A DNA stretch of 13,421 nt, taken from NCBI GenBank assembly GCA_003526465.1, contig DPWD01000292.1, forward strand, positions 1-13,421, written 5' to 3'. The notes under the pieces are model-generated. The model saw nothing but the letters and a program-made list of their open reading frames with translations, did no database searches and was not told the origin of the DNA. Position numbers and translations under genes: made by a program. This document shows positions 436 through 13,421 of this stretch, piece after piece. Source of the stretch: Hyphomonadaceae bacterium (GTDB lineage Bacteria; Pseudomonadota; Alphaproteobacteria; Caulobacterales; Aquidulcibacteraceae). Each line of letters opens with the position of its first letter. The first letter of the stretch is position 1.

Positions 436-1467
436 TTACGGCTCCGGCGCGCGATTGATCCTCGCTTCCAGGTTCGCGATTTCTCCCAGCACCCAATCAA
501 ATGTTGGCGCGTCACCAAACATCATGCCCGACATGCGTACATAGTCGCGGGCGAGGTCTTGCCGGATTTCAGGTTGCGGCGTCAGGAGCATAGTACCAGG
601 ACGCGCCTCGTCTAGCTTCTCCCAAGGCCGGCGGAAGGCGAGCTGTTTGTGCTGGCGCACGTCGTCGAGCAGCGCAATGTCCCGAACAGCCTTGAGCCCT
701 TCAGCGCGCCCGGCCATCATCGCCACATCGTAATAGTGGCGCGAAATCGGGTTGCGATCATCGGGCCGTTTGCCTTGGTCGCGGAAGCCGCAGTGAACGC
801 CGTGAAGGATTAGCGCCTTTTCCCAGAACGTGCGACGGGCGGCGATCAGCGTGACCGACTTGGTCGTGAGGTCCATCCGCATGCCAAGCAGGTCTTGGAC
901 GTAGGGGGCGATGGCTCGCCGCTGGATCGGTTCAAGTGCGCCTCGGGCACCGCACTCGATCTTGACGAATGGTCGGAGATACGGATCGGCAGGAAGGATC
1001 GATGGGTATTTTACCTGTAGACTCGCGCCATCGGGATCGTCGGCGTCCACTTCGACGGCACACATCGGAACGAGGGTAGCGAGCCGCTCGCGCATTTTCA
1101 CCGTTACGTGGACGCCGCACTTCTCGATAAGACCTTTGAAATTCTCCTTCCGTTTGGTCGCGCTGAGCGAGGGTGCGAACGGGTCGTTTCCGCTCCGCAC
1201 GCGAAGTCCGGCGCGCGACAGCACGATATCTATGTCCTCGGAGAAACGGTTTATGAGGCCGTAGCCCTTGGAAAGAGAGGTGCCGCCTTTAAAGAAAAGT
1301 TTGGGCTGGGAGGGCAATCCCTTGAACAGCGCATCGATAACGCGACAGACCCAGAAATCCTTTTCGATGGCCTGCGCCGTCGTGCCGAGCCGGATCGCCG
1401 CAGCCTCGAACAGGTCGCGGCGATCCATAGCCATCAAGGTGTCGAACCGGGCGTAGTCGGAGTTCAT
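436..1467 (-). CDS. abiEii: AbiEii toxin, nucleotidyltransferase of a type IV toxin-antitoxin system
   Basis: The 343-residue product has the features of the AbiEii/MenT nucleotidyltransferase family: EKDFWV (35-40), the nucleotide-binding motif GGTSLSK (61-67), the metal-binding acidic motif RFSEDIDI (74-81, with D78 and D80), RTFWEK (212-217) and SRHYYDV (242-248). Family members transfer nucleotides to tRNA or related targets, stop growth, and can abort phage infection; the target of this copy is unknown. Length matches family members of about 300-340 residues and all the motifs are present, so the gene looks intact. The ATG lies 6 bases after the abiEi stop, giving the usual antitoxin-first operon. 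It ends before a hairpin terminator. Its place on a transferable element next to the integrase fits maintenance (addiction) or phage defence, or both. The call is firm; the biological role is inferred from the family. Confidence 0.9.
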   Translation of the reverse strand: MNSDYARFDTLMAMDRRDLFEAAAIRLGTTAQAIEKDFWVCRVIDALFKGLPSQPKLFFKGGTSLSKGYGLINRFSEDIDIVLSRAGLRVRSGNDPFAPSLSATKRKENFKGLIEKCGVHVTVKMRERLATLVPMCAVEVDADDPDGASLQVKYPSILPADPYLRPFVKIECGARGALEPIQRRAIAPYVQDLLGMRMDLTTKSVTLIAARRTFWEKALILHGVHCGFRDQGKRPDDRNPISRHYYDVAMMAGRAEGLKAVRDIALLDDVRQHKQLAFRRPWEKLDEARPGTMLLTPQPEIRQDLARDYVRMSGMMFGDAPTFDWVLGEIANLEARINRAPEP

Positions 1468-1473
1468 CGTCTG

Positions 1474-2088
1474 CTATGTCGCCCGATTCTCCACGATTCG
1501 CCGAGCTGGGCCGATCGCCCATGCCGGAAGCGCCCGCAGGTTGCGCGCGAGCGCGGACTTGGCGCCCTTCGAAGCATGACGGCGAATGGTTGCCGCCGCT
1601 GCATCCAGCGGCGCATTCGTCGCGCGCGCCCACAGCAGGGCTTGGACAATCGGCGCCGCCGGGCTGCCGATCCATGGGATCAACGCCGACTTGGCCCGGT
1701 GGAACTGAACTAGGCGGCGGTCGATGGCGACATCGCCGATCTTGCGGGCAGCCACATAAGCAGGACGAACCGGAACGGCCGTCGTAAGTCCCATGGCGTT
1801 GGCGGCGGCGAGGTCATCGCGGATCACCAATGTCCTTGCTCGCCGGGAGACTGCCGCCACCACGGCGTCAAGGCTTGCCGGCGCATCGGCCCCCAAGACG
1901 GCGCTGTGGCGAGGGCGGTCGTACAGACCGCGTCCAATCCGGCGAAGGTCACCGGCCTTGGCCAGTCTGGAAAGCGCCTGGTCGACTGCCGCCCGCCCGC
2001 CCAAGTCCAGAAAGTCCTTGGGCGTGAAGGCGCGCGTGCCGGGGGCATGGGCGCGAACGCGGGTCATGATCTTGGCGGCGATGTTCAT
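1474..2088 (-). CDS. abiEi: AbiEi antitoxin, winged-helix transcriptional autorepressor
   Basis: The 204-residue protein begins MNIAAKIMTRVRAHAPGTRA. A winged helix-turn-helix domain spans roughly residues 5-58, ending LRRIGRGLYDRPR, a signature of the AbiEi/DUF6088 family. The C-terminal two-thirds is basic and Ala/Arg-rich, as expected for the domain that counters the toxin without binding it. Known AbiEi proteins repress their own promoter by binding inverted repeats, and exactly such a repeat lies at 2106-2138. AGGA (complement of 2096-2099) sits 7 bases before the ATG and supports this start. abiEii follows 6 bases downstream, so the two are co-transcribed and probably translationally linked. 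The integrase gene ends 135 bases upstream on the same strand. Confidence 0.88.
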   Translation of the reverse strand: MNIAAKIMTRVRAHAPGTRAFTPKDFLDLGGRAAVDQALSRLAKAGDLRRIGRGLYDRPRHSAVLGADAPASLDAVVAAVSRRARTLVIRDDLAAANAMGLTTAVPVRPAYVAARKIGDVAIDRRLVQFHRAKSALIPWIGSPAAPIVQALLWARATNAPLDAAAATIRRHASKGAKSALARNLRALPAWAIGPARRIVENRAT

Positions 2089-2105
2089 GGCATTTTCCTG
2101 CGAGG

Positions 2106-2138
2106 ATTGTCAGATATATATATGAATAATCTGACAAT
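2106..2138 (-). promoter_or_regulatory. Promoter/operator of abiE: perfect 10-bp inverted repeat with AT-rich centre
   Basis: ATTGTCAGAT (2106-2115) and ATCTGACAAT (2129-2138) are exact reverse complements separated by 13 bases of TATA-like sequence, the most AT-rich spot nearby. On the minus strand TTGTCA can serve as a -35 box and the TATATA run as part of a -10 region, so a repressor bound here would block transcription. AbiEi-type antitoxins are known to bind such repeats for negative autoregulation. It lies 18 bases upstream of the abiEi start codon. Confidence 0.7.
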
Positions 2139-2223
2139 GGCAAACCATCGGGGGCGCTGGCGCTGTAGACGGACTGCCCTTGTGAAGGTCGGATGCCGGA
2201 CAAAGCGGGTGGCGCCGGCTGGA

Positions 2224-3483
2224 TTATGGGCCCCCGTCGGGGGCCGAACGCGCCGCCGCCACATGCTTGGAGATGCGCTCGACCAGGTCGCGCACAGGAT
2301 CATCGCGCAGGTGGGCATAACGCTCGGTGGTCGATGCCTTTCGGTGCCCAAGAGCTTTGCCGAGAACGTAAAGGCTCTCGCCTTGCTCGACCGCAAAGGA
2401 CGCGAACGAGTGGCGGAGATCGTGAATACGAACGCCTTCAATTTTCGCCGCCTTGCACACTCGCAACCAGGATCGCCTGAGCCCGACTGTCGGGCGCTCA
2501 TCCTTGGCGGTTCTGTCTGTCTTAATGGCGGGAAAGACGAAATCCGAGATGCGCGGCTGCGCCTGGAATTCCCTCAGCACTTCATCGCTGAATGGGATAC
2601 GGCGCGCGCCCGTTTTCGAGCGAAACTCCGGGAGGACGAGGGCCTTTCGCTGAAAGTCGATTTCGTCCCAGGTTAGGGCGGCGATCTCGGACTTGCGACA
2701 GCCCGTCAAAAGCAGAATCCGAAATATGGAAGCGTGGCTTGCGTGCGCCTCGCCTTTATCGGTGCAGACATCTATCGCCACGTAGAGACGCTTCACCTCA
2801 TCGGTTGAAAGATAGCGTTCCCGTTTCTGGGTTTTGAAGGTGGCAACGCCCTTGGCGGGATTGGCTGACACATAACCGCGCCGTACCGCCCATTGGAGCA
2901 TAGCCGCAAGCGTGATCATGGTTCGCTTGGCCGTGCCTACGCCGCCCTTGACGATCACTCGGCCGCGCTTCTTTCCGCTCTTTTCAGTCTTGGCGGTTTT
3001 GCCACTGGCGACCGCGCGCTGGAAATCCGCGATGTCGTTGCTGGTCAAACTGGCGGCAAGCTTACGTCCGAGAAGGGGCTCGGCGTGGCTCTTAAGGTTG
3101 GAGCGGTCAGTTTGCCATGTCGTGGCTCGCTTGGTTGGTTTGTCGATCGGACCTTGTTCCATATAGAGGTCGATGAGCTGCGCCACAGTCAGCCCCTCAC
3201 GGGTGGCGACTTTCTCCTCCTGAGGGTCGCCGCCATTGCGCGCGGCGTAGAGCAAGTCTTCGGCCTTGCGCCGGGCGGTTTCCGGCGTCCATGGTGAGCC
3301 ATGTCTGCCGATCGTGAACCAGCGCTGCCGGTGACCGACACGATAGAACACCATGTACATCTTCGCGCCGTTGGGACGCACGCGAAGCACAAACCCTTTG
3401 AGCTCGTCGTCCCAAATCTTGATTTCTTTGCCGTTCGGATCGGGCTCTGCTGCGTCCACAATGCGCTTAAGAATTTTGGCCAC
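2224..3483 (-). CDS. int: Tyrosine-type site-specific integrase (P4-like, DUF4102 N-terminus)
   Basis: The 419-residue recombinase catalyses insertion and, with helper factors, excision of the element at tRNA-Val. Residues 1-90 form the DUF4102 arm-type DNA-binding domain (IKIWDDELKGFVLRVRPNG, then FTIGRHG). Residues about 97-205 are the core-binding SAM-like domain. The catalytic domain from about 222 has the full set: R263 (TGCRKSEI), K290 (RSKTG), H354 and R357 (HDLRHSFAS), H380 (LGHRKASTTERYAH) and nucleophile Y389. The start is GTG at 3483, preceded by AAGGTG five bases upstream, and the protein then reads MAKILKRIVDA as expected for the family. It begins 208 bases from the tRNA fragment and is transcribed away from it, the usual layout for an integrase next to its attachment site. 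It appears complete and functional. Confidence 0.95.
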   Translation of the reverse strand: MAKILKRIVDAAEPDPNGKEIKIWDDELKGFVLRVRPNGAKMYMVFYRVGHRQRWFTIGRHGSPWTPETARRKAEDLLYAARNGGDPQEEKVATREGLTVAQLIDLYMEQGPIDKPTKRATTWQTDRSNLKSHAEPLLGRKLAASLTSNDIADFQRAVASGKTAKTEKSGKKRGRVIVKGGVGTAKRTMITLAAMLQWAVRRGYVSANPAKGVATFKTQKRERYLSTDEVKRLYVAIDVCTDKGEAHASHASIFRILLLTGCRKSEIAALTWDEIDFQRKALVLPEFRSKTGARRIPFSDEVLREFQAQPRISDFVFPAIKTDRTAKDERPTVGLRRSWLRVCKAAKIEGVRIHDLRHSFASFAVEQGESLYVLGKALGHRKASTTERYAHLRDDPVRDLVERISKHVAAARSAPDGGP

Positions 3484-5857: not shown

Positions 5858-5955
5858 GTTCCGCGTCCTTGCTTAATGCGCGTTGAGTATGGCGCCGGAA
5901 GCGTAAACAATTACTCACCGAAAGGTTAAGACGTTTGTGAACGTTGCTGCGGTCG

Positions 5956-6093
5956 CTCCCCCTCCCCTCGAGGGGTTGGGGGCGGGCTGATGCGCCATTG
6001 TTTGTTGTACTTGACGCAAATCGTGCGCTGCAATGCCTTTGCCGTCAGTGTTTCACCCCACCCCCTGCCCCCTCCCCTCAAGGGGAGGGGGAG
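5956..6093. repeat. REPIN-like inverted pair of C/G-rich repeats (family A)
   Basis: The first unit (5956-5986) begins CTCCCCCTCCCCTCGAGGGG and contains the 12-base palindrome CCCCTCGAGGGG. The second (6054-6093), read on the minus strand, begins CTCCCCCTCCCCTTGAGGGG and folds into a perfect 11-bp stem (6068-6078 with 6081-6091). The two copies face each other across 67 bases. Related pairs occur at 11208-11364 and from 13302. The second stem lies 21 bases past the ku stop and could help end that transcript. Confidence 0.8.
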
Positions 6094-6112
6094 GTGCATC
6101 TCCTGGAGAGAC

Positions 6113-8522: not shown

Positions 8523-8789
8523 ATGAAACGCAGATCTGCCTTCGAACCAAAGAGCGAGCCGATTGGATTAGTCATCGCAAGAATTCTGTTCAGCCTTGGT
8601 TTCCTAATTGTTGCGGCTTTGGGGTTTCTGGGGGTGGCAGTGCTACTCGGTAAAGCGCATGCGCCTGAGCCAATTGCATGGACGTGCTTTGTCTTGTACG
8701 GGGTTGCTGTTCTGGTCGCCTACCTTTTTCTTAAGTGGACCAATCTCGGAAAATTTCTCTGGGACATTCCTCCATATTTGATTTTCTAG
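8523..8789 (+). CDS. Small two-helix membrane protein, unknown function
   Basis: The 88-residue product begins [20 protein letters not shown]. Two hydrophobic segments at about residues 14-37 and 46-67 are separated by a short loop (GKAHAPEP), with a hydrophobic C-terminus ending PPYLIF. The reading frame is open back to 8361, but the first 54 codons would translate the inverted repeat, so I place the start at the ATG at 8523. The ribosome-binding site is weak. Base composition is lower in GC than in the neighbours, which suggests a recent arrival or weak selection. It sits between ivd and mccB, 17 bases before mccB, where most leucine-degradation operons have nothing. No family recognised. 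Confidence 0.6.
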
Positions 8790-8806
8790 AGACGCTGCGC
8801 CAAACA

Positions 8807-10411
8807 ATGAAACTCAAATCCAGCATCGATCCAAACTCCGAAGCCTTCGCCAAGAACGCCGCGCATCACCGCGCGCTGGCGGAGCAACTGCGCTCGCGCA
8901 CGGCGCAAATCGCGCTCGGCGGCCCTGAAGAATCCCGCACCCGCCACACCAAGCGCGGCAAGCTGCTGCCGCGCGAGCGCGTGGAGCGTTTGCTCGATCC
9001 GGGCGCGCCGTTTCTGGAAGTGGGCGCGCTGGCGGCGTATGGGCTCTACCACAACGAAGCGCCGGCGGGCGGGATCATCACCGGCATTGGCCGCGTCTCC
9101 GGGCGCGAAGTGATGATCGTCGCCAATGACGCCACCGTGAAGGGCGGGGCGTATTTTCCGATCACGGTGAAGAAGCATCTGCGCGCGCAGGAGATCGCGA
9201 TGCAGAACAAATTGCCGTGCGTGTATCTCGTGGATTCCGGCGGCGCCAACCTGCCGCACCAGGCCGAAGTCTTCCCCGACCGCGACCATTTCGGCCGCAT
9301 CTTCTACAACCAGGCGCGCATGAGCGCCGAGAGCATAGCGCAAATCGCCTGCGTCATGGGCTCGTGCACGGCCGGCGGCGCGTATGTGCCGGCGATGAGC
9401 GACGAGACCATCATCGTGCGTAACCAAGGCACCATCTTTCTCGGCGGGCCGCCTTTGGTGAAAGCCGCGACCGGCGAAGTGATCAGCGCCGAAGATCTCG
9501 GCGGTGCGGAGGTGCATGGGCGCAAATCTGGCGTGGTCGATCACGTCGCGCAGGACGATGCGCATGCGCTACATCTCGTGCGCCGCGCGGTGGCGAATCT
9601 CAACACCGTAAAGCATGTCGGCCTCGATCTGCGCGAACCGGTAGCGCCCGCCTACGACGCGAGCGAGTTGTACGGCATCCTGCCCCAGGACGTGCGCACG
9701 CCATACGATGTGCATGACATCGTCGCCCGCATCGTCGACGGCAGCGAGTTCGACGAATTCCGCCCGCTCTATGGCGCAACTTTGGTCACCGGCTTTGCCC
9801 GCATCTGGGGCTATCCGGTCGCGATCCTGGCCAATAACGGCATCTTGTTTTCCGAGAGCGCCCAGAAAGCCGCGCATTTCATCGAACTCGCCTGCAAGCG
9901 CGGCATTCCGTTGGTGTTCCTGCAGAACATTTCCGGCTTCATGGTCGGGGGCAAATACGAAGCCGGCGGCATCGCCAAGGATGGCGCCAAGATGGTGACG
10001 GCGGTGGCGTCAGCGGAAGTGCCCAAGTTCACCGTGCTGATCGGCGGCTCCTTCGGCGCCGGCAATTACGGCATGTGCGGGCGCGCGTATAGCCCACGCT
10101 TCCTGTTCACCTGGCCCAATTCGCGCATCTCGGTGATGGGCGGCGAACAGGCCGCGAGCGTGCTAGCGCAAGTGAAGCGCGATGGTATGGAGTCGAAGGG
10201 GGAGAAGTGGAGCAAGGACGAAGAAGAGAAGTTCAAACAGCCGATCCGCGAGCGCTACGAACTAGAAGGCGATCCCTATCACGCCACCGCGCGTCTGTGG
10301 GACGACGGCATCATCGATCCAGCGCAAACGCGCGATGTGCTGGGGCTAGCGATTTCCGCGTCGCTCAATGCGCCGAACCCGGAGACGCGGTTTGGGGTGT
10401 TTAGGATGTAG
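8807..10411 (+). CDS. mccB: Methylcrotonyl-CoA carboxylase, carboxyltransferase (beta) subunit
   Basis: The 534-residue subunit transfers the carboxyl group from biotin to 3-methylcrotonyl-CoA, giving 3-methylglutaconyl-CoA. It has the two crotonase-like halves of the carboxyltransferase family. [20 protein letters not shown] (144-163) and IFYNQARMS (165-173) are characteristic of MCC beta and separate it from propionyl- or geranyl-CoA carboxylases. The acyl-CoA oxyanion-hole glycines lie in [16 protein letters not shown] (185-200), and the second half has [23 protein letters not shown] (374-396) and [20 protein letters not shown] (413-432). I chose the ATG at 8807 over the in-frame one at 8735 because [17 protein letters not shown] matches the usual N-terminus; no good Shine-Dalgarno is seen. 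The partner mccA lies about 960 bases downstream, separated by an unrelated gene and repeats. Confidence 0.94.
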
Positions 10412-10413
10412 CG

Positions 10414-11022
10414 ATGCGTAGCCATATGATTCTGGCGTTGGCTCTTTTGAGCGCTGGGTGTGCGAACTCATCGCGCAGTGTTGCGGAAGGGCTTTACCGA
10501 ACGACCAGCGCGACCGAGCAAGGCGCTGTGATCGATGAGATGGTTGAGCGTTGGTATGATAACGCGCGCGCCTATCCATCCTGTCGCTCTAGACAGAACC
10601 ATATCTATGCTGACGAAGGACGAGGACGCGAGAGCATTGGCGCGCAGGAGTTCTTCGCTCGACTACGATCACCGGCCATCTTCGTGGTTTCCGGTCCCGA
10701 GCGCGTGGAGGAGCGAATCGACGTAGAGGACGGCGGGCACGGCGATTCCTACCCCTACGAGTATCACACACTTTATCGCTTTGACCGGGCGCGAATCCTC
10801 TACGCACAGGACAGCGACTACGCTCGGATTTGGCCTATAAGCTTTCAGCTTTCCGAGTTAGCCGCGGCGCCACGCATTCCAAGTGACTTCGTGAGCGCGA
10901 ATCGAAGCTATCTGGTGTTTGCAAATTTCATTGAGTATGAGCCGCGCCTGGATGCGCTCGTTATCTGCGAACTTTCCGATCCGGCGACTTTGCCCCTTAT
11001 CTTAGAACAGCCCACACAATGA
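10414..11022 (+). CDS. Putative lipoprotein, unknown function
   Basis: The 202-residue product begins MRSHMILALALLSAGCANSS. The hydrophobic stretch 5-14 and the lipobox LSAGC (12-16) predict a lipoprotein attached at C16; the second mature residue is alanine, which by the usual rule would not retain it in the inner membrane. The mature part is acidic and tyrosine-rich (DSYPYEYHTLYRF, about 111-123) and shows no repeats or further membrane segments. The start lies 2 bases after the mccB stop, so it is probably translated from the same mRNA. Codon use is less GC-biased than in mccB. I do not recognise a family; nothing links it chemically to leucine breakdown, and it splits the usual mccB-mccA pair. 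Confidence 0.7.
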   Translation: MRSHMILALALLSAGCANSSRSVAEGLYRTTSATEQGAVIDEMVERWYDNARAYPSCRSRQNHIYADEGRGRESIGAQEFFARLRSPAIFVVSGPERVEERIDVEDGGHGDSYPYEYHTLYRFDRARILYAQDSDYARIWPISFQLSELAAAPRIPSDFVSANRSYLVFANFIEYEPRLDALVICELSDPATLPLILEQPTQ

Positions 11023-11036
11023 GCCATACAAACTTC

Positions 11037-11142
11037 CGTCATTCCGGACGCGACGAAGTCGCGATCCGGAACCCAGGGGCCAACATCGAGCTGGTTGCTC
11101 CTGGGTTCCGGGTTCGTCGCTGCGCGACGCCCCGGAATGACG
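11037..11142. repeat. REPIN-like inverted pair (family C)
   Basis: The outer arms CGTCATTCCGG (11037-11047) and CCGGAATGACG (11132-11142) are exact reverse complements, as are CCGGAACCCAGG (11066-11077) and CCTGGGTTCCGG (11100-11111). Each half also carries its own hairpin: CGCGAC-GAA-GTCGCG (11049-11063) and CGTCGC-TGC-GCGACG (11115-11129). It starts 15 bases after the lipoprotein stop and ends 11 bases before the truncated mccA-like start. Confidence 0.85.
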
Positions 11143-11153
11143 AAGAGAGTTGC

Positions 11154-11371
11154 ATGTTAAAGAGTGCTTTGATCGCCAATCGCGGCGAAATCGCCCGGCG
11201 CGCGCTTCTCCCCCTCTCCCTTGCGGAGAGGGGGCGGGGGGTGAGGGGCGTTGAGCTGCCACGCACTTTGCAGGCTCGCGCTCGGCTCTCGCTCTCGAGA
11301 CAGTGCGCTCGTATTTTCGCCCCTCATCCCCTAACCCCTTCTCCGCAAGGGAGAAGGGGAAGAGACCGCCC

Positions 11372-11378
<7 letters not shown>
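11154..11378 (+). pseudogene. Truncated second copy of the mccA start, reading on as a 74-codon frame
   Basis: The frame opens MLKSALIANRGEIARRA. Its first 16 residues match the start of mccA (MLKSVLIANRGEIARR) at all positions but one, with 40 of 48 bases identical; seven of the eight base differences are synonymous. After codon 17 the sequence becomes the C/G-rich repeat at 11208-11364, and the frame continues as low-complexity LPLSLAERGRG-type residues. The stop codon TAA (11376-11378) overlaps the mccA start (ATGCTAA), so if translated it would act as a leader that delivers ribosomes to mccA. A purine-rich GAAGAGA lies 5 bases before its ATG. It could be a dead remnant of a biotin carboxylase gene or a retained leader; I favour a remnant. 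Confidence 0.65.
11208..11364. repeat. REPIN-like inverted pair (family A) between the mccA-like remnant and mccA
   Basis: Unit one (11208-11250) has the stem CCCCCTCTCC (11210-11219) with GGAGAGGGGG (11225-11234), then GGGGTGAGGGGCG. Unit two (11318-11364) is in reverse orientation with the stem CCCCTTCTCC (11335-11344) and GGAGAAGGGG (11350-11359). The 67-base gap equals that of the pair at 5956-6093. The right arm is purine-rich and lies 12 bases before the mccA ATG, so the hairpin may affect access to the ribosome-binding site. Confidence 0.8.
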
Positions 11379-13288
<1,910 letters not shown>

Positions 13289-13301
13289 GTACGCTGCTCC
13301 A

Positions 13302-13421
13302 ACCCTCTCCCCCTGCGGGGGAGAGGGTGCCGCGGAGCGGCGGGTGAGGGAAAGGCGCTCTATCCGGCATAGACCGCAAACCCCTCATCCGGCCCTTCGG
13401 GCCACCTTCTCCCCTCAAGGG
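13302..13421. repeat. REPIN-like inverted pair (family A) after mccA, cut by the window edge
   Basis: ACCCTCTCCCCC (13302-13313) pairs perfectly with GGGGGAGAGGGT (13317-13328) across TGC, followed by CGGGTGAGGG. A second unit in reverse orientation begins near 13381 (CCCCTCATCC), contains the hairpin GGCCC-TTC-GGGCC and runs to the edge at CCCCTCAAGGG. It begins 13 bases past the mccA stop and the first stem may double as a transcription end, though it lacks a T-run. Confidence 0.75.

Follow-up and report, generated by a model that had tools for sequence, protein, structure and literature searches.

MIRUs of mycobacteria are short repeats, apparently mobile, that insert at start codons. The ORF of a MIRU becomes coupled to the gene with a −4 nt spacing, so the insertion disturbs expression little (PMC12548453). 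REP and REPIN sequences are palindromic, often paired and located mainly between same-direction and convergent ORFs, and the ends of GTAG REPs often supply stop codons to the flanking ORFs (PMC3733652). RPEs are palindromes of about 150 bp that are kept in a readable frame, and a review stresses their fusions inside genes (PMC10969869).

In layout, the Terricaulis repeats analysed here are palindromic and often paired like REP and REPIN sequences, and are kept in a readable frame like RPEs. The bridged Terricaulis copies differ from the RPE fusions in being separate coupled ORFs between genes. The closest known kind is the mycobacterial MIRU, and by an analogy of layout the Terricaulis repeats would work in the same way. 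They differ from MIRUs in their alphaproteobacterial host, their GC-rich palindromic doublets and the presence of several repeat types at one junction, and in having, at mccA, a captured 16-codon gene start with a 7-nt overlap. A literature search with limited reach into subscription papers found no report of MIRU-like repeats in Caulobacterales, and an Rfam search gave no match near the gathering score.

The duplicated mccA start in the window

The window is the whole 13,421-nt stretch of DNA that was analysed, and its genome (G000) is an incomplete MAG (57% complete, 403 contigs) of the genus Terricaulis in the order Caulobacterales. The start of mccA is duplicated in the window (Table 1). 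The copies, read directly from the sequence, are 48 nt long and have 40 identical bases, and a codon count found seven of the eight differences to be synonymous and one (GCT/GTT) nonsynonymous, which bears out the first-pass annotation of this DNA. The upstream copy, referred to as the remnant, reads MLKSALIANRGEIARR, and the second copy, the working mccA start, begins MLKSVLIANRGEIARR; the DNA between them is GC-rich. The remnant frame runs uninterrupted to a TAA within the ATGCTAA of the mccA start, as had also been described, but actually opens upstream of the remnant at an ATG overlapping the TGA of the preceding ORF. The complete bridging ORF joins two genes. The remnant matches the genus profile of mccA starts with E = 7.3e-10 and is not a chance match. 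A matching layout is present in G005, G010 and G007, which are separate assemblies with about 30, 40 and 70 contigs, so the duplication is not a private misassembly, the finding that the annotation had said would remove it.

Table 1. Coordinates of the mccA junction in the window
Feature	Position	Strand	Basis and remarks
mccB-like carboxyltransferase gene, first in the coupled chain	8735..10411	+	ORF; name from gene order; precedes mccA in the Terricaulis loci whose contigs extend far enough
Upstream ORF, 202 aa, lipoprotein-like N-terminus by eye	10414..11022	+	Its TGA stop (11020-11022) overlaps the following start
Bridging ORF, 119 aa: repeat A, remnant and repeat B1	11019..11378	+	Opens at ATG 11019; ATGA overlap at start, ATGCTAA overlap at end; stop TAA 11376-11378
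Palindromic repeat A, approximate limits	11038..11145		Inverted arms 11066-11085 / 11092-11111
Remnant, first 16 codons of mccA	11154..11201	+	Opens at ATG 11154; read letters, pairwise match, genus profile
Insert B1, palindromic repeat doublet, 170 nt	11202..11371		Reaches the mccA ATG; inverted arms 11200-11241 / 11328-11369
Right-arm hairpin, 3' strand GGAGAAGGGG	11335..11359	+	Fold, z −2.95
Overlap ATGCTAA, mccA start and bridging ORF stop	11372..11378	+	
mccA-like biotin carboxylase gene with second, working start	11372..13288	+	ORF

The B1 loop (11243-11322) matches only at the mccA loci of G000 and G003 in a search of 30 genomes, 19 of them Terricaulis, that was run without G022 and G028; B1 is also present at mccA in those two genomes. 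Repeat A also sits directly before mccA in G008 and G001. Two of three protein-search matches (P0001, P0003) are an mccA-like start joined to a B1 peptide. Elsewhere in the window, repeat-like peptides at 5944-6100 and 13300-13421 (HPLPPPLKGRG, PPLRGTLSPAGG) suggest additional palindromic repeats, and at 436-3483 a tyrosine-integrase-like ORF adjoins two ORFs that by eye resemble an AbiE-type pair.

The remnant is probably the old mccA start, displaced and retained as a leader that couples translation, an instance of coupling-preserving repeats that lie at stop/start overlaps within operons across Terricaulis. A GC-rich palindromic repeat would have come between the old and the new copy of the start. 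The old copy, which would retain its former upstream start signals, would open a short ORF that passes through the repeat and stops on the new start, and ribosomes from the upstream gene would translate across the repeat. In the hairpin, the strand GGAGAAGGGG forms a purine run that resembles an SD, lies 12 nt ahead of the mccA ATG and may act as the SD of mccA. Leader translation would open the hairpin and expose this run, because the run is held in the hairpin at the end of the right arm, adjoining the mccA ATG. This step corresponds to the unfolding model of translational coupling (PMC12548453). Ribosomes would then terminate at ATGCTAA and reinitiate on mccA, and selection would retain mainly the reading frame.

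Remnants and bridging frames at other mccA loci

The 27 mccB-mccA intervals of 26 Terricaulis genomes were read. Remnants are present in G000, G005, G007 and G012, twice in G010, twice at a second mccA locus of the G003 assembly (G003b) and in decayed form in G022. A profile from 26 mccA starts recovers seven of the nine remnants, in six of 30 Terricaulis genomes, and the two beyond these are decayed. The break lies mostly directly after codon 16; the likeness may extend past this codon in the G012 remnant, and the G022 remnant is shortened to 10 codons. The intervals also hold variable families of small genes, several of which by eye end in a common C-terminus like RIRAEIAARE, and in G024, a one-contig genome, the mccA match is in two frames near codon 109 (L063 17755-19639), a frameshift or a sequencing error.

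A break that adjoins different inserts (B1, B2, B3 or a small gene) in most cases, together with cores that follow one another in tandem in G010 and G003b, might mark the attL and attR sites of an integrative element that targeted the 5' end of mccA, supplied a new start and is now reduced to the remnant. SXT integrates in prfC and supplies a new start. At mccA this origin is very improbable. All 27 mccB-mccA intervals are below 1.4 kb, which leaves no room for an integrase island, and no integrase or island was found between two cores in them. Profile matches above 43 bits in the 30 Terricaulis genomes, four of them without an assembled mccA start and one (G017) with a contig ending at it, are all at mccA loci.

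All 13 repeat-fronted mccA starts tested, which are partly related by descent and not independent (several genomes share B1, and several share B2), are bridged by an ORF crossing the repeat. Twelve of these ORFs end on the mccA start and one is a base short. The ORFs begin either with the remnant or on the preceding gene's stop, with start codons picked after the sequences had been inspected, and G014 was excluded since its repeat replaces the first mccA codons. In the frame-shift control one start is bridged with one base added (G024) and one with two added (G009). The stop ends at +7 of mccA for the remnant ORFs of G000, G005, G007, G012 (563 nt), G022 and the second remnants of G003b and G010, and also in G028, G015, G008 and G001, whose ORFs begin at the preceding stop without a recognisable remnant. 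The end overlap is 7 nt in these 11 of the 13 cases. The other two, likewise lacking a recognisable remnant, are G009, with an end at +4, and G024, one base short of the ATG. Behind the first remnants of G003b and G010 lies a small gene, on whose start the remnant ORFs end. Overlapping stops are not universal among intervals that lack such repeats (e.g., G023, G006 and G004). In 13 of 13 repeat-fronted starts the frame and the place of the stop are preserved, which supports, beyond the single case, the earlier proposal that the remnant could serve as a translationally coupled leader.

Remnant sequences have decayed in G007, G010 and G022, and pN/pS values of 0.74-0.79 indicate weak peptide constraint in B2 bodies. 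Both would be expected of a dead scar, an untranslated leftover with a frame held open by luck and high GC. This account is unlikely, since the decay spares the frame: the seven remnant-to-mccA distances (218, 221, 221, 221, 563, 218 and 200 nt) are all 2 mod 3 and open, whereas the two other frames carry 1-7 stops, and the frame-shifted controls mostly fail. The remnant belongs to a bridge that recurs with its frame intact and is not an isolated scar. A conserved leader peptide was rejected as the reason for the remnant, as its sequence decays and the frame persists. Constraint is stronger in two A pairs (pN/pS 0.24 and 0.34; four A pairs of unequal length were dropped), and repeat A may have a peptide role. 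Hairpin folds of six sequences range from z −3.65 to −0.1, with a modest value for G005 (−1.4) and an unexceptional one for G008 (−0.1), so on these predictions the hairpin part of the mechanism is not general.

Outside Terricaulis, 80 named mccA loci contain one clear remnant, in a Sphingomonas MAG (L088). The order there is remnant, bioB and mccA. The remnant shares 41 of 48 bases, extends to about 20 codons, starts on the stop of the preceding gene and ends in a TAA directly before the ATGATG of the bioB start, and the bioB TGA overlaps the mccA ATG. This bioB (L088 2103-3172), a biotin synthase gene by sequence, lies between the remnant and the real biotin carboxylase start, with stops and starts that touch or overlap on both sides. 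In Sphingomonas arenae (L066) bioB precedes mccA without a remnant. The other named loci reach at most 29/48, taken as background, and include the decayed G022 case (L064, 28/48). In a profile search across the class (385 genomes, E <= 1e-10, with strict filters) the members of any same-strand pair were at least about 8.8 kb apart; because even the mccA start of the window fell outside the cut-off, further cases may exist.

Repeats at other operon junctions

Repeats of the mccA families were located in 60 other loci, in 400 kb of G007, in loci read previously and in a total of 760 kb from G028 and G021. Like MIRUs they are interspersed, with 119 islands outside mccA in the stretches read, and lie between same-direction operon genes: 46 islands are in same-direction gaps compared with 8 in divergent and 7 in convergent gaps, 52 are inside long coding-like ORFs and 6 are at edges. 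The share of same-direction gaps among intergenic islands with both neighbours (46/61) differs from that among repeat-free gaps of 100-300 nt (p 0.01).

An ORF from the upstream stop to the downstream start bridges 22 of 44 same-direction repeat gaps and is missing from 22, by gene calls from a simple codon model made for the analysis; two more gaps fell outside this count, as their upstream ORFs run past the repeat. Frame-shift controls bridge 3 and 4 of the 44 (Fisher 1.1e-7), in GC-rich DNA that has few stops. The bridging ORFs, two of which are longer than 100 aa and could be ordinary genes, overlap their neighbours by 4 nt (NTGA) as MIRU ORFs do, exactly from NTGA(−4) to NTGA(+4) in 15 of the 22 gaps and at the downstream end in 20. 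Repeat-free gaps of 100-300 nt are bridged in 11 of 116 cases (Fisher 1.0e-7 vs repeat gaps), a contrast that leans on selected loci, because the stretches supplying this control have 4 of 15 repeat gaps bridged compared with 18 of 29 in loci chosen by similarity to mccA repeats. The frame-shift contrast does not lean on them. Shifts reduce the repeat-free count to 3 and 2 of 116, so the true frame is favoured there too; ordinary small genes also leave the bridging mark, though less often. In two repeat-poor genomes a preceding test with looser criteria found bridges in 1 of 6 repeat gaps vs 84 of 400 others, and a k-mer search in G007 returned too few repeats for a bridging test.

Empty and filled sites were compared at one operon junction (L147) in 26 genomes, with counts made by eye. 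Fourteen genomes are without a repeat, and 13 of these show a plain GTGA overlap. Ten sites are filled, eight bridged between NTGA sites (G000, G012, G022, G003, G023, G028, G007 and G005) and two unbridged (G013 and G019); the remaining two genomes have a different neighbour. Insertion into an existing start/stop overlap is a further likeness to MIRUs. The bridged fills comprise by eye at least two, and probably three, unlike repeat sequences. A second junction (L211) is mixed, with bridged fills in G018, G017, G007, G010 and G006, empty sites, and several fills without a bridge (e.g., G008, G028, G003 and G005).

A wider reading can be put forward only tentatively. The repeats may form a class akin to MIRUs, made up of several types of palindrome that preserve coupling and enter the same Terricaulis operon junctions again and again. 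At mccA the host would reuse 16-20 codons of the downstream start as the leader, perhaps with the new start taken from another strain's allele, and gene-start duplication would be a recurrent evolutionary answer to repeats inserted ahead of coupled genes, in Sphingomonas with bioB as well. If this holds, coupling-preserving repeats are not a mycobacterial peculiarity, palindromic repeats have a reason to be tolerated in operons, and some 'hypothetical proteins' of 45-75 aa could be translation bridges. It also raises the question of whether a bridging ORF of little peptide meaning keeps the downstream gene expressed.

The 52 of 119 islands inside coding-like ORFs may be RPE-like, and some of the palindromes may be in-frame protein parts as in Rickettsia. 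The mccA of G014 reads through a repeat in frame. This B2-like repeat (L055, about 15530-15720) replaces the mccA codons before about 51, and the gene may be broken or shortened.

Source of the second start

The first-pass annotation had offered repair from a paralog as one source of the second copy. This is not supported: the accC-like start of the same genome shares 35 of 48 bases with the window remnant, compared with 41 for the mccA starts of two other Terricaulis genomes and 40 for its own mccA. The start of the pccA-like gene gave no match in a motif search of this incomplete MAG. The G005 remnant is identical to another species' mccA start at 46 of 48 positions and to its own at 40, and the G012 remnant at 47 and 39. 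Another strain's mccA is likelier than a paralog as the source of one copy, because these two remnants match the mccA of other species better than their own. The same closeness to other species' starts suggests that the repeat and the new start arrived together from another strain, and the start was perhaps doubled by recombination with an allele bearing both. Homology-facilitated illegitimate recombination would be a fitting route for such doubling. A trio of genomes, picked post hoc, has a 75-nt block in common at the mccA start and not beyond, and in a permutation of a group of four genomes 3116 of 20000 random fours equal it (not significant). These comparisons only hint that the new start is foreign.

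Direct copies on both sides of an insert, and insert lengths that are nearly equal (170, 173 and 170 nt), are also what a transposing repeat would leave by plain target-site duplication followed by divergence. This origin is improbable. A scan of 40 other repeat loci, several of them overlapping, found no comparable flanking duplication; its single pair, at a place in G009 seen in two loci, is an unrelated 30/40 match 1481 nt apart. The closeness of the G005 and G012 remnants to other species rather than to their own gene also speaks against it, as do the B1, B2 and B3 loops, whose alignment is not above chance (z −0.6 to 2.1). The annotation's statement that this is not a fresh target-site duplication fits these data. 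The equal lengths hint that B1, B2 and B3 may descend from one ancestral insert, but the loop alignments, which do not rise above chance, do not bear this out.

Gene-start duplication as a general habit was rejected. A scan of 760 kb of two relatives returned 36 direct repeats of at least 35/48, and the printed rows, with low-complexity matches left out, were by eye domain repeats, tandem repeats or paralogs. Y1 transposase number did not correlate significantly with repeat number in 19 genomes (rho 0.36, p 0.13; repeat counts are at-least values), and none was found in the 57% of G000 that the assembly covers. Y1 transposases (Y1_Tnp, PF01797) are present in 16 of 30 Terricaulis genomes, and on G003:C135 one lies about 3 kb from a repeat.
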